A DNA stretch of 15,682 nt from an uncultured Colwellia sp. (GTDB lineage: Bacteria > Pseudomonadota > Gammaproteobacteria > Enterobacterales > Alteromonadaceae), in NCBI GenBank assembly GCA_913020705.1, contig CAJWBY010000116.1, positions 1-15,682 of the forward strand, read 5' to 3'. Made by a program: the position numbers and the translations under genes. Below are positions 9,718 through 14,097 of the stretch, in pieces. The notes under the pieces were generated by a model. It ran no database searches and was not told where the DNA came from. It saw nothing but the letters and a program-made list of their open reading frames with translations. Numbering within the stretch: the first letter of the stretch is position 1; each line of letters opens with the position of its first letter.

Positions 9718-10113
9718 TTGCAAAATATAATTTTGAACTTTATTTTGTTCATAAGCTCTGTATTATCCGTTAATACTGTTACTTCAGTCCCTTTGTCATC
9801 GGTTATTAGCAACGATACTCAACAAGTGGAATACATAGATTATTGTATTGAAGCCCCGATACTAATCTTACAAAAAACTACAGAAGTTCATTTATATGAT
9901 GTATTAAGTTCATTAAGTCTTAATGGAACTTATTTGGACATATTCAATGACACTTTTGATTTACATCAAGATTCTCTCATACTTGTCGATACATTGATAA
10001 GTAAACAAAAGTATAAAATTCAAAAACAGACTTTTCAAAAGTCTATTACAACTATCCGTCTACAATTCATTAAAACGCTTTATCAAGTTGAAAGTGAAAA
10101 CCTCAGCGCTTAA
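9718..10113 (+). CDS. Hypothetical secreted protein
   Basis: A 131-residue protein I do not recognise. It begins at TTG with a strong AAGGAG ribosome-binding site. The N-terminus (MQNIILNFILFISSVLSVN) is hydrophobic and lacks the positive residues expected of a signal peptide, so it could be an atypical signal or a membrane anchor. The rest is mixed polar sequence with no motif known to me, containing one Cys (DYCIEAP) and a Lys/Gln/Thr-rich C-terminal third likely to be helical. It is followed after 72 bases by another small gene on the same strand, with no terminator visible between them. Codon use looks like its neighbours, so it is probably a real gene. Confidence 0.55.
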   Translation: MQNIILNFILFISSVLSVNTVTSVPLSSVISNDTQQVEYIDYCIEAPILILQKTTEVHLYDVLSSLSLNGTYLDIFNDTFDLHQDSLILVDTLISKQKYKIQKQTFQKSITTIRLQFIKTLYQVESENLSA

Positions 10114-10185
10114 CTGATTATTTTAATAAATATCCGTTTGATCATTTATTGATTAAACCTTTTAAATAATTTGATTGAGTGTTCT

Positions 10186-10461
10186 ATGGAAAATATCCTT
10201 ACGTACGACCTATATTTGGCGTTAGCGCCATGGTTAGTTTTTGCTGTACTGTCAATATTAGCGATAATACTAATGAAGTTTGCTAAAAAACGCCGCGGTA
10301 TAGCCATTGCCTTTGCTGTTTTTGTTCAAATGTTTTCACCAGATCCTCTTGTTGAAAAGACTATTGCTATGGTGGTTTCTGAAAAAAGAGCAATAAAAAA
10401 GCAACAAGCCGAAGATGGCGGAGAAAAGGGGCTTATAAAAAAGCGAGTGAAAAAAGATTGA
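10186..10461 (+). CDS. Small conserved-type membrane protein, function unknown
   Basis: A 91-residue protein with one clear N-terminal membrane span (about residues 9-30, LYLALAPWLVFAVLSILAII) and a second short hydrophobic stretch (GIAIAFAVFVQMF, about 38-50). Between them lies a basic loop KFAKKRRG; the C-terminal 40 residues are highly charged (EKRAIKKQQAEDGG...KKRVKKD) and should lie in the cytoplasm. I chose the ATG at 10186; a TTG at 10171 is in frame but has no ribosome-binding site. Similar small membrane proteins occur in Alteromonadales as hypothetical proteins (recollection, not checked). It ends at the hairpin shared with dusC. Confidence 0.6.
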   Translation: MENILTYDLYLALAPWLVFAVLSILAIILMKFAKKRRGIAIAFAVFVQMFSPDPLVEKTIAMVVSEKRAIKKQQAEDGGEKGLIKKRVKKD

Positions 10462-10522: not shown

Positions 10523-11482
10523 TTATAAAGAATTCGTTGAAGATTTATTTAATAAAGTTAAAATTTCTTCTTTATTTTTTAATGTTTTAATATCACTAAA
10601 CAGTTGCTCCGCCTCCGGGTATTGTAACCTTAAGTAGCGTAACCATTGCTTTAATCGACTAGAGAAATAAAAACTTTTATCGCCAATTAATTCAAGTTCA
10701 CTGTATTGCTTTAGAAGAGTACAAATTTGTTGCCAAGGCATAGGTTGTTGATTGTCTTTTATCACCGCTTCTAAGTTTGGTAAAGCAAGCGCGCCACGGC
10801 CAAGCATTAAGTTAGGGGTATGGCTTTCTTCTATACAGCGATGGGCATCTGCTAAATTCCAAATTTCACCATTTGCGAAAATTTCTATCGGATATTTTTT
10901 AACTATATCTGCGATAAAATGCCAGTAGGCAGGAGGGCGATAGCCGTCAGCTTTTGTTCTAGCGTGAATCGTTAGTTGATCAGCATTAGCTGACGTAATA
11001 GCGCTTACTATTTCATCTAACAATGATGCATCATCAAAGCCTAAGCGAATTTTCGCTGATAGTACGACGTCTTTTCCAAGCGCTTCTTTTACTGCGAGCA
11101 CTATTTTATAAATATCTTCAGGCGTTTTAAGTAATGCTGCACCACCGCGGTTTTTATTCACTGTTTTAGCAGGACAACCAAAATTAATATCTAACCCATG
11201 AGAACCAAGTTCTACAGCTCTAACAGCATTCTCTGCCATCCAGTTTGGTTCTTGTCCAAGTAACTGCATTCTAAGGGGCGTTCCAGATTTCGTAAAACCT
11301 TGCTGTTCTAGTTCAGGACATACCTTATAAAAGCATCGCTCGGGTAATAATTGATCAACAATCCGAAGAAATTCAGTGATGCAAAAATCGTAATTATTCA
11401 ATGAGGTTAATAAATGACGCATCAAAGCATCGGCCACACCTTCCATTGGTGCTAAAACCACTTTTTTTACTTGAGTATTCAT
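10523..11482 (-). CDS. dusC: tRNA-dihydrouridine(16) synthase
   Basis: A 319-residue flavoenzyme of the Dus family that reduces uridine to dihydrouridine in tRNA using NADPH. The TIM-barrel start is VVLAPMEGVADALMR; the catalytic Cys103 lies in NFGCPAKTVNKNRGG, the Dus signature. FMN-binding barrel segments follow (LSAKIRLGFDD, LTIHARTK, IFANGEIWN, LMLGRGALA), then a helical C-terminal domain that binds tRNA. The length and sequence are closest to the DusC branch, which in E. coli modifies U16. The gene stands alone, divergent from the Cys-repeat gene. The start ATG at 11482 has only a weak ribosome-binding site; a ten-base palindrome AGGTTAACCT (11490-11499) lies just upstream. Confidence 0.93.
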   Translation of the reverse strand: MNTQVKKVVLAPMEGVADALMRHLLTSLNNYDFCITEFLRIVDQLLPERCFYKVCPELEQQGFTKSGTPLRMQLLGQEPNWMAENAVRAVELGSHGLDINFGCPAKTVNKNRGGAALLKTPEDIYKIVLAVKEALGKDVVLSAKIRLGFDDASLLDEIVSAITSANADQLTIHARTKADGYRPPAYWHFIADIVKKYPIEIFANGEIWNLADAHRCIEESHTPNLMLGRGALALPNLEAVIKDNQQPMPWQQICTLLKQYSELELIGDKSFYFSSRLKQWLRYLRLQYPEAEQLFSDIKTLKNKEEILTLLNKSSTNSL

Positions 11483-11539: not shown

Positions 11540-11556
11540 TTTCAACATTATTGAAA
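11540..11556. promoter_or_regulatory. Inverted repeat in the divergent dusC / Cys-repeat region
   Basis: TTTCAA (11540-11545) and TTGAAA (11551-11556) around 5 bases. It lies 77 bases before the Cys-repeat start and could be a regulator site. I could not find a convincing -10/-35 pair for that gene nearby. Confidence 0.3.
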
Positions 11557-11633
11557 TTTATTTACTGAGTCGAAGGTCTTTGTTCTTAGCTTACATATGT
11601 AGTGCCAAAATTATAAAATTAAAGGAAAACATA

Positions 11634-11984
11634 ATGAAACTTTTGAAAAAATCATCGATGACAGCTCTATTAGGTTTATTTGCTCTATCTCTTGCTGTAT
11701 CAGCACCTGTAAAAGCAGAAACCAATCCTTTTGAAACTAAAAGCATTGTCGCTATTGTAGCTGAAGAAGCTAAAGCAGGTAAGTGCGGCGAAGGCAAGTG
11801 TGGCGAAAGTAAAAAAGCCAAAGCAGGTAAGTGCGGCGAAGGCAAGTGTGGCGAAAGTAAAAAAGCCAAAAAAGGCAAGTGCGGCGAAGGTAAATGTGGC
11901 GAAAGTAAAAAAGCCAAAAAAGGCAAGTGCGGCGAAGGTAAATGTGGCGAAAGCAAAGCAAAAGCTAAAAAATGTGGCGGTTAA
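11634..11984 (+). CDS. Secreted Cys-rich EGKCG-repeat protein, HvfA-like RiPP metallophore precursor
   Basis: A 116-residue exported protein. The start ATG at 11634 follows AAAGGA at a good distance; the longer in-frame reading from 11508 has no signal and is rejected. A clear signal peptide (KKSS...LLGLFALSLAVSA) ends at APVKA|ET, residue 28. After a short linker come four 16-residue repeats of A-K-(A/K)-G-K-C-G-E-G-K-C-G-E-S-K-K and a final KKCGG: nine Cys in all, no other hydrophobic core. EGKCG repeats mark the HvfA family, whose Cys are turned into oxazolone/thioamide groups by an MNIO (DUF692) enzyme with a DUF2063 partner, giving a copper-binding peptide. Neither partner is next to this gene, so it is an orphan, served from elsewhere or unmodified. 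Even unmodified it should bind soft metals. A good terminator follows. Family call from motif only. Confidence 0.75.
   Translation: MKLLKKSSMTALLGLFALSLAVSAPVKAETNPFETKSIVAIVAEEAKAGKCGEGKCGESKKAKAGKCGEGKCGESKKAKKGKCGEGKCGESKKAKKGKCGEGKCGESKAKAKKCGG
11769..11960 (+). repeat. Four tandem 48-bp in-frame repeats
   Basis: Units at 11769-11816, 11817-11864, 11865-11912 and 11913-11960, each 16 codons. Units 1 and 2 differ by one synonymous base (GCT/GCC); units 3 and 4 agree until the last few codons. Between the pairs, the second residue changes (AGK to KGK) and several third bases change. They encode the GKCGEGKCGE repeats. There are no spacers, so this is not a CRISPR array. Confidence 0.95.
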
Positions 11985-12018: not shown

Positions 12019-12054
12019 AAAACCATGTTAATCATAGATTATCATGGTTTTTTT
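12019..12054 (+). terminator. Rho-independent terminator of the Cys-repeat gene
   Basis: AAAACCATG (12019-12027) pairs with CATGGTTTT (12043-12051); beyond one T-T mismatch a further 5 bp pair (TAATC/GATTA) to an ATA loop. A long T-run follows (12048-12054). Confidence 0.85.
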
Positions 12055-12134
12055 ATATTACACTTTTTTAAAGTAATCCCCCTTAATCAAAGAAATGCAC
12101 ATAATAAAATTTAGCTATTTCATGATGAATTATC

Positions 12135-12231: not shown

Positions 12232-14097
12232 ATGTATAAAAATATCAAATGTAAATTGGGGCTATTAGCTTTAGCTATATCATTAGGACTAACCGGTTGT
12301 GACCTTGATGGTAAAGATGGAGACCAAGGTTTAATTGGTATTCAAGGGGAACAAGGTGTCGCTGGCAATAATGGTAATGACGGTAAGACTTTACCCAGGT
12401 CTTTAAATGTTGAAGTGGTAGGACGTTTTGCTACGGGCATATACGGTAAAAGTGCTGCAGAAATTGTTCAATTTCATAAAAGTTCTAACTCTGCATTTGC
12501 GATTAATGGTGCAACTAATCAAATTGAGGTCATTAACTTAGCAAACCTTTCTGTAACAGCGTCAAGTAATCCTACCTCAGATGAAAGTTTAAGTTCAAGT
12601 GCCTTTACTTTTCCGTTAAGTGTTTCTGTAAAAAGTAGCTCTGGTTTTGATAAAGAAATTCTTTTAGCTGCAGTTAACTCAATTGCGATTAAAGATAACT
12701 TACTCGCAATCGCTGTTGAAGGACAAGTAAAACAAAACAATGGAGCTATTTTATTTTACCGCCTAAATGAACTGGGCGAGGGCGCTTTTATTAAAGCCGT
12801 TGAAGCAGGTGCTTTACCGGATATGGTGACCTTTACACCTGATGGGTTAAAGGTTTTAGTCGCAAATGAAGGCGAGCCTAGTGCTGATTATAGTAACGAC
12901 CCTGAGGGATCTATTTCGGTTATATCAGTATTAGATTCAGTGCCTGCAAACATTGCTACAACAATTAATTTGAACACAGACATAGTCTTTAATGATGATA
13001 ATTTAGATCCTGAAGATTTTGATACCGACGCCAAACGCTTGGCTATTTTATCAAACTCAGGAGTGAAATTTGCAGGTCCAACAGGAAATACTGTTGCTAA
13101 GGATTTAGAGCCTGAATACATAACCACATCTCACGATAGTAAAATGGCGTTTGTTTCTCTTCAAGAAAATAATGCCATTGGTCTTATAAACCTTGAAGAT
13201 AATACGATTGAAGTTAAGGCTTTAGGTTATAAAGACTGGAGTCAATATCAATTAGATTTTACCAATAAAGACGAAATGGCTGAATTTAAGAGTGTTGAAG
13301 GGCTCTACGGCATGTACCAACCCGATACAATTGTGTCATATACTTGGAATGACACTACCTTTATTCTTTCTGCAAACGAAGGTGATGCAAGAGACTATGA
13401 TGGTTATTCAGAAGAAGTACGTGTAAAAGACATTATTGACCCCGATGAATTAAACAAAACACTTTCTACTGACCTTCAAATGCAATATGACCAATCAGGT
13501 GGAAAGAATTACCTTGGTCGTTTGAAAGTTACTACTGCACTTGGTGATGAAAATCAAGATGGCGAATTTGAAAAATTATTTGCTTATGGAGCTCGATCAT
13601 TCTCTATATGGGATCAAAATGCCAATTTAGTTTTTGATTCTGGTGATGATTTTGGGAAAATTTCATCAGCAATCTTGGGCGAAAATTTTAATGCTGCCCA
13701 CACAGCAAACAAAGGTGATAATCGTTCTGATGATAAAGGTGGTGAACCTGAAGCGATTGATGTGGGTGAAATTGAAGGGAGAACATACGCATTCATAGCA
13801 CAAGAACGTGCGGGTGATTTATTTGTTTATGATATTACTAACCCATTTAACACTGCTTTCGTGACACATTACAATAATCGAGACTTTAATATTGATTACG
13901 AAATGGATGATGACTTAGATAATCCATGTGATGTCAATGAGGGCATGGACTGTACCAACATTAACTTAGCTGGCGATTTAGGGCCTGAAAGCATAAAGTT
14001 TGTATCGGCTGAAGATAGCCCAACTGACAAACCGTTATTGATTATTGGAAATGAAGTGTCTGGAACGGTAACCGTTTATCAAGTTACTGAACAATAG
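12232..14097 (+). CDS. Choice-of-anchor I domain lipoprotein with collagen-like stalk
   Basis: A 621-residue lipoprotein. The signal ends with lipobox LTGC (Cys23). Residues 27-53 are nine unbroken Gly-X-Y triplets (GKD GDQ GLI GIQ GEQ GVA GNN GND GKT), a collagen-like stalk. From about 58 to the end is one long domain of the choice-of-anchor I family, often annotated as alkaline-phosphatase-like, probably a beta-propeller. Family marks: LEPEYITTSHDSKMAFVSLQ near 285-305, NEGDARDYDGY near 380, and DNRSDDKGGEPEAIDVGEI...GRTYAFIAQER near 490-520, closing with GNEVSGTVTVYQV. Asp-rich loops such as DENQDGEFE (439-447) could bind calcium. Its activity is not proven; phosphatase or esterase action is inferred from the family. 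A Pho-like operator precedes it. AGGG at 12221 is a modest ribosome-binding site. It stands alone, with a terminator after it. Confidence 0.85.
   Translation: MYKNIKCKLGLLALAISLGLTGCDLDGKDGDQGLIGIQGEQGVAGNNGNDGKTLPRSLNVEVVGRFATGIYGKSAAEIVQFHKSSNSAFAINGATNQIEVINLANLSVTASSNPTSDESLSSSAFTFPLSVSVKSSSGFDKEILLAAVNSIAIKDNLLAIAVEGQVKQNNGAILFYRLNELGEGAFIKAVEAGALPDMVTFTPDGLKVLVANEGEPSADYSNDPEGSISVISVLDSVPANIATTINLNTDIVFNDDNLDPEDFDTDAKRLAILSNSGVKFAGPTGNTVAKDLEPEYITTSHDSKMAFVSLQENNAIGLINLEDNTIEVKALGYKDWSQYQLDFTNKDEMAEFKSVEGLYGMYQPDTIVSYTWNDTTFILSANEGDARDYDGYSEEVRVKDIIDPDELNKTLSTDLQMQYDQSGGKNYLGRLKVTTALGDENQDGEFEKLFAYGARSFSIWDQNANLVFDSGDDFGKISSAILGENFNAAHTANKGDNRSDDKGGEPEAIDVGEIEGRTYAFIAQERAGDLFVYDITNPFNTAFVTHYNNRDFNIDYEMDDDLDNPCDVNEGMDCTNINLAGDLGPESIKFVSAEDSPTDKPLLIIGNEVSGTVTVYQVTEQ
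12304..12384 (+). repeat. Collagen-like Gly-X-Y coding stretch
   Basis: Nine consecutive Gly-X-Y triplets right after the lipid-anchored Cys. Bacterial collagen-like segments of this kind can form trimers and act as rigid spacers; only nine triplets may be short for a stable helix. Confidence 0.75.

Follow-up and report, generated by a model that had tools for sequence, protein, structure and literature searches.

Here, we describe an EGKCG-repeat protein gene of an uncultured Colwellia sp., found in a 15,682-nucleotide stretch of DNA that was analysed as a whole (the window). The reading that we favour, with some reserve, is that this gene belongs to a Colwelliaceae-wide, stand-alone branch of the EGKCG family whose members are no longer MNIO substrates and whose products would serve as a stress-induced, exported and unmodified thiolate buffer. 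The branch is apparently inherited vertically. The features that carry this reading, all of them read from sequences, are the conservation of the gene under purifying selection, the absence of MNIO and DUF2063 genes from many of the genomes that carry it, a leader that lacks the [GA]Y pair, and a shared promoter-like element.

The gene (11634..11984, + strand) is an ORF running from ATG to TAA, which encodes 116 amino acids including nine Cys. As read by eye, the translation begins with a signal-peptide-like stretch, MKLLKKSSMTALLGLFALSLAVSAPVKA (residues 1-28; 11634..11717, +), which ends in a putative V-K-A|E cleavage site, and the protein is apparently secreted. This stretch is followed by a linker, ETNPFETKSIVAIVAEEAK (11718..11774, +), which retains NPF but has no [GA]Y element of the kind seen in MNIO-linked precursors; across 29 relatives, A28 and N31-P32-F33 are invariant and E29 is nearly so. 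The rest of the translation consists of four 16-residue repeats, (A/K)GKCGEGKCGESK... (11775..11966, +), and a KKCGG C-terminus with the stop codon (11967..11984, +). The initial annotation had described four EGKCG motifs, nine Cys and a signal peptide, with a second Cys in each repeat in an (A/K)GKCG context, and counting on the translation agrees with it: EGKCG occurs four times, AGKCG and KGKCG twice each, and the final KKCGG supplies the ninth Cys. Its further idea that the two kinds of Cys are treated differently found no support; in the accessible part of PMC13097082, FonA variants at repeat position 1 were processed, except those with Pro or Arg.

The EGKCG domain model NF050137 (NCBIfam) matched four stretches of the protein and scored 83.3 bits against a cut-off of 19.5, and 4166 of the 7995 candidates scored were homologues at E <= 1e-3. 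Together with the intact syntenic relatives in many Colwellia and Thalassotalea genomes, these matches indicate that the ORF is not a chance one. The HvfA equivalog model NF050188 gave 56.2 bits, which is below its cut-off of 95; since just one of the 147 family genomes and none of the 274 class genomes reached that cut-off, MNIO-linked genes included, the model does not discriminate. Its matches were confined to one gene per genome (40 of the 42 carrier genomes had matches). No Pfam family matched the protein. AlphaFold2, run on a 29-row alignment, returned a mean pLDDT of 44 and no confident fold, with a low-confidence helix at residues 8-22; the beta-helix published for another EGKCG protein is absent from this model, which is too poor to argue from.

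The gene is flanked by a divergent dusC (10523..11482, - strand), identified by family matches, and by a gene for a choice-of-anchor I protein. A single scan of the GTDB species genomes yielded 73 loci, mostly from Colwellia, Cognaticolwellia, Thalassotalea and relatives. Among the 59 loci L001-L059, 29 have dusC on the minus strand upstream of the EGKCG gene, at a distance of no more than about 2.7 kb. Many of the other loci have a TonB2-type operon upstream and a DUF1456-like gene or cheY-apt-dnaX downstream (the names TonB2, cheY, apt, dnaX and sigma-32 (rpoH) come from reading the sequences, not from a family search of each). The dusC arrangement is conserved synteny, and dusC is not thought to be a functional partner of the EGKCG gene. 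The term orphan, under which the gene had first been described, is thus misleading, because the gene is a conserved locus of a clade made up of Colwellia and its relatives and not a stray. The description as an HvfA-like EGKCG protein whose modification genes are missing locally holds good: in addition to the NF050137 match, no MNIO or DUF2063 was found in the window by a Pfam scan of 11 of the 14 ORFs of at least 80 amino acids (the three outside the scan are short, and 11591-11956 on the minus strand is a shadow of the repeats), and no MNIO was found in the flanking DNA examined at any of the loci L001-L073.

A hairpin of the form AACCATG...CATGGTT with a T run, seen by eye 3' of the gene (12020..12055, +), is a probable terminator, so that the gene is probably a single-gene transcription unit. 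Comparable hairpins follow the EGKCG gene in L001, L004, L012, L029 and L192; a scan with a loop limit of 8 did not list the hairpin of the window. In the 5' region, a palindrome, TACATATGTA (11592..11601, +), is shared by the window and its nearest relatives L001, L004, L012 and L192, and occurs with one change in L029. The choice-of-anchor I protein (12232-14097) has a short collagen-like Gly-x-y stretch, GDQGLIGIQGEQGVAGNNGNDGK, directly after its lipoprotein-type start. On the other side of dusC, the small ORFs 9718-10113 and 10171-10461 had no family match above the cut-off; each has a strong relative in L012, and the latter has one in L029 as well.

In principle, an MNIO-DUF2063 pair of the Buf1 or Buf2 type encoded elsewhere in the genome could modify the peptide in trans to give a 5-thiooxazole metallophore, with the unmodified form in MNIO-less genomes. 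We consider this unlikely. Of the 42 carrier genomes, 23 have an MNIO (PF05114) and 19 showed none, although single absences may be false since the set comprises many isolates and some MAGs; DUF2063 was found in 22 and not in 20, and the difference between the two is one genome that holds MNIO fragments only (L096). When 147 genomes were sampled from the GTDB family, 107 had an MNIO and 105 an EGKCG gene, and 22 of these 105 were without an MNIO. Among 274 genomes drawn from the class, 72 had an EGKCG gene, and three of those, one of them a Colwellia, lacked an MNIO. The published share is 67 of 2583 EGKCG genomes (PMC12452194, Table 3), and the accessible text of that paper calls precursors without an MNIO rare and perhaps no longer functional. 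The persistence of the EGKCG gene with or without an MNIO in the genome argues against modification in trans. Of six genomes of the nearest genus, five carry the EGKCG gene, and these same five each have a single MNIO at a great distance from it; for this reason, the window's own species may well have an MNIO too, which speaks for modification in trans. As far as the available part of PMC12452194 goes, one pair can also serve several precursors.

We also asked which clients these MNIOs have beside them and to which type they belong. Of 30 MNIO loci taken from the carrier genomes (which leaves aside four full-length matches and one further G022 fragment), 28 have their own Buf1- or Buf2-like precursor upstream; L085 had no precursor by the filter used, and L096 is an MNIO fragment. 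The Buf1 label was checked as DUF2282 in all three proteins tested, and the Buf2 labels were assigned by reading, with one 13-Cys protein tested that gave no Pfam match. In a tree of 118 MNIOs, which contains the duplicate rows L162/L233 and L253/L280, a branch with support 100/100 separates 88 of the 89 EGKCG-locus rows from all 29 Colwelliaceae MNIOs, which fall outside the main EGKCG-type group. This placement argues against the Colwelliaceae enzymes acting on the EGKCG peptide. The exception is L250, where a GY-bearing EGKCG precursor adjoins an MNIO outside the EGKCG-type group, which is about 44% identical to the Colwelliaceae MNIOs and sits on a long branch; this case favours modification in trans, as it shows that the client does not follow strictly from the type of MNIO.

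A [GA]Y pair between signal peptide and repeats, typically in the form L-x-S-G-Y-M/Q, was present in all 53 scorable MNIO-adjacent genes of the family (the 54th, L228, was dropped because its leader is masked) and in none of 33 EGKCG genes of MNIO-less genomes. The window gene is also without it. This marker was found in the present analysis and is not a published criterion. The count comprised 124 EGKCG genes, one per genome, from two overlapping sets, the 42 carriers and 97 of the 105 family genomes (G081, G109, G116, G118, G142, G143, G150 and G166 were left out, two of which are MNIO-less). When the EGKCG gene was not adjacent to an MNIO in an MNIO-bearing genome, the pair was present in 4 of 37 cases, two at contig ends and two, L172 and L175, on a contig that also carries an MNIO at a distance of about 59 kb. 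The class sample had the pair in 33 of 34 distinct MNIO-linked EGKCG genes, with L269 as the exception (LSSSHM, that is, SSSHM in place of SSGYM); this count excludes L243, which is MNIO-linked, and a spurious overlapping ORF of L235, and the two genes shared by L253 and L280 were counted once. Three genes from two other MNIO-less gammaproteobacterial genomes, L262 and L263 (G311) and L264 (G365), have no GY and are possibly independent cases. Since the stand-alone genes are mostly of one clade, these counts are not independent, and the pattern of losses rests on perhaps three lineages.

The same marker bears on modification in trans from both sides. At the level of the class, such modification is plausible, as GY is kept by all 11 EGKCG genes of MNIO-bearing genomes whose own stretch, as examined, shows no MNIO, and the precursor and MNIO of L172 and L175 show the separation that it presupposes. 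However, all these candidate trans precursors keep the pair, whereas the stand-alone Colwelliaceae genes of MNIO-bearing genomes lack it in 33 of 33 cases. Leaders were also scored with a profile built from the MNIO-linked precursors in the class sample. The median was 45.5 bits for MNIO-adjacent genes and about 21 for stand-alone genes, with 21.4 for the window, and the two groups overlap at about 19-31 bits (stand-alone genes reach 31.2 and adjacent ones go down to 19.3). By these scores, the stand-alone leaders are homologous to the MNIO-linked ones but have drifted. According to the accessible part of PMC13097082, no single Ala substitution ahead of the core stopped FonBC, so loss of GY alone need not stop modification; HvfBC hardly modified a peptide without its signal sequence in the available text of PMC13419390, which indicates that the leader as a whole matters. 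The initial annotation had posed the choice as one between a distant MNIO and plain thiols. That fork was the right one, and the evidence tips towards plain thiols, because 19 of 42 carriers have no MNIO, the MNIO loci mostly have other precursors, their MNIOs lie outside the main EGKCG-type group and the [GA]Y pair is missing.

Upstream of the gene, the promoter-like element TGAAAT-N17-GGTC (11552..11578, +) is an exact match and the sole one on either strand of the window; judged by its form, it is probably the promoter of an ECF-type sigma factor. Of 67 stand-alone genes, 58, that of the window included, have the element in the 250 nt before the gene (spacer of 17 in 55 and of 16 in three), as do 37 of 54 MNIO-adjacent EGKCG genes, with a mean of 0.2 in shuffles. 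In a class-level set, 2 of 49 genes had it exactly, which suggests a family-level signal. A sigma-70 promoter scan gave three sites against 3.6 expected and was set aside for the conserved element. Genome-wide, a slightly stricter element gave 47 sites in 10 genomes and a backward control gave 15, so about a third of the sites may be chance. This element precedes a thioredoxin-fold protein gene in 6 of the 10 genomes read, a DoxX protein gene and, in Thalassotalea, an AhpC/TSA protein gene (one genome) and a sigma-32-like gene (two genomes). The proteins were identified by Pfam on one example each, and the AhpC, sigma-32-like and chemoreceptor-like associations come from one to three genomes. 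This set of sigma-32-like, AhpC/TSA, thioredoxin-fold and HAMP/chemoreceptor-like genes suggests an envelope-stress regulon. Individual instances of the element before genes of these four kinds are L290, L310, L309, L295, L283, L287 and L307. Another recurrent site, TGAAATATCTTCAGG..., was dropped since no sensible gene lay behind it in the three loci read.

The element also precedes the Buf2-type MNIO operon in five of eight loci, and the Buf1-type operon in 1 of 21 (L093, spacer 16). In MNIO-less genomes, six of eight HvfX-like doxX genes have it, L327 and L336 being without. Four MNIO-bearing Colwellia and Cognaticolwellia loci (L074, L077, L078 and L080) have the order element-doxX-Buf2-MNIO-DUF2063, with a lipoprotein gene next that is visible in three of them, and four loci of MNIO-less relatives (L333, L334, L335 and L338) have the order element-doxX-lipoprotein. 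As read from these gene orders, the Buf2-MNIO-DUF2063 cassette comes or goes behind doxX, and the EGKCG gene, doxX and the element stay.

The main functional rival also takes the thiols to be unmodified and would make them a sink for oxidants or reactive chlorine, or a redox partner, instead of a metal buffer; to us this seems improbable. The genes behind the stricter element, which include those for thioredoxin-fold, AhpC/TSA and sigma-32-like proteins, point in its direction, as does the hvf/doxX operon of H. influenzae, which requires the ECF factor RpoE2 and is switched on by HOCl according to the part of PMC7907618 available. On the other hand, modified relatives bind copper and bufferins protect against it, as reported in the accessible sections of PMC12452194.

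In order to see how the stand-alone genes evolve, dN/dS was calculated over the first 46 codons in 13 pairs, two of which had saturated dS. The window and L012 differ by a dN of 0.03 and a dS of 0.24, three pairs of MNIO-less species gave dN/dS of 0.019/0.211, 0.010/0.208 and 0.029/0.164, and the ratios of all 13 pairs lie at about 0.03-0.18. As measured on these codons, the stand-alone genes are under purifying selection. In the repeats, Cys occupies the x of K-x-G-E at every position counted in MNIO-less genomes (367 of 367) and in stand-alone genes elsewhere (340 of 340; together 707 of 707), and at 393 of 399 in MNIO-adjacent genes. Both TGT and TGC codons are in use at these positions; repeat homogenisation may also retain Cys without site-by-site selection. 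The parity of Cys was considered as a sign of disulphides (32 even and 34 odd in stand-alone genes, 42 even and 11 odd in MNIO-adjacent genes), and fixed pairing is unsupported. The strict retention of Cys with its flanking Gly could also be expected if some other enzyme modified the Cys of the stand-alone branch; this is very unlikely, as none of the recurrent neighbours (dusC, the TonB2-type genes, cheY, apt and dnaX) was recognised as a modification-type gene. The missing local MNIO cluster might suggest that the gene is a decaying relic of a lost RiPP cluster, and this is scarcely credible, being largely contradicted by the low dN/dS, the intact frames and the conserved promoter-like element and Cys in MNIO-less species.

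Taken together, these results favour a stress-induced, unmodified thiolate buffer, which we propose would work as follows. A stress-responsive and probably ECF-type sigma factor would switch the gene on, and the protein would pass through Sec to the periplasm, where its signal peptide would be removed. Nine unmodified thiols on a flexible, lysine-rich chain would then form a thiolate buffer, whose most likely target is Cu(I) or some other soft metal, and could possibly be kept reduced by the co-regulated thioredoxin-fold proteins. Soft-metal buffering is favoured here by analogy with the modified relatives. Free thiols in the oxidising periplasm tend toward disulphides, which counts against unmodified thiols. 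With regard to the origin of the branch, there is about an even chance that a RiPP precursor family gave rise to a free-standing, unmodified envelope poly-thiol protein through loss of the leader element, becoming independent of the enzymes and keeping the same stress promoter.

If this is true, MNIO clients among the EGKCG proteins can be told by their [GA]Y element, and the automatic name "oxazolone/thioamide-modified RiPP metallophore" is a misnomer for the stand-alone branch, whose proteins are labelled as modified RiPPs by automated naming whenever NF050137 scores above its cut-off. The analysis offers this simple sequence marker together with a candidate regulon. The clade is conserved and includes named isolates in which no MNIO was found, such as Colwellia polaris and Thalassotalea loyana, which makes EGKCG function without heterocycles directly testable. 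C. hornerae is an example of a carrier that does have an MNIO, and Colwellia and Cognaticolwellia with and without the Buf2-MNIO block provide a natural presence/absence comparison. In the literature searched, with subscription papers mostly outside its reach, we found neither the stand-alone Colwellia branch nor the TGAAAT-N17-GGTC element described.

Small Cys-rich proteins that buffer metals through thiolates are known as metallothioneins, and the likeness of the EGKCG protein to them lies in its proposed function only; unlike metallothioneins, it would be exported and has a regular KCGEGKCG spacing, and no homology is claimed. Like HvfA/oxazolin of Haemophilus influenzae (hvfABCX), the window protein has KCGEGKCG repeats, preceded by a putative Sec signal peptide that looks convincing by eye, and the ECF-type promoter-like element proposed for its gene would correspond to the ECF sigma factor control of the hvf/doxX operon (available part of PMC7907618). 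In contrast, the HvfA gene stands together with those for an MNIO, a DUF2063-type partner and DoxX, and the six Cys of HvfA are converted to 5-thiooxazoles according to the accessible text of PMC13419390, whereas the window gene has no such genes adjacent, no GY and an equivalog score of 56 against a cut-off of 95. The EGKCG 5-mers are shared with fontiphorin and gonophorin of the "captophorin" class, a class which is defined by MNIO-PME1 clusters and 5TO groups (PMC13097082, accessible part) and differs in this respect. On sequence grounds, we place the window protein in the EGKCG domain family as a member that would work like a thiolate buffer and in which the gene adjacency of HvfA/oxazolin RiPPs is not found. 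The Buf_EGKCG precursors without an MNIO in the genome are the same phenomenon, which is described as rare in the available portion of PMC12452194; in the clade described here, it is frequent, with conserved synteny and purifying selection, and is accompanied by a sequence hallmark and a shared promoter-like element. Thus, the EGKCG family and its MNIO-less members were known already, and what appears new against the literature searched is a conserved enzyme-free clade, its marker and the promoter-like element that it shares.
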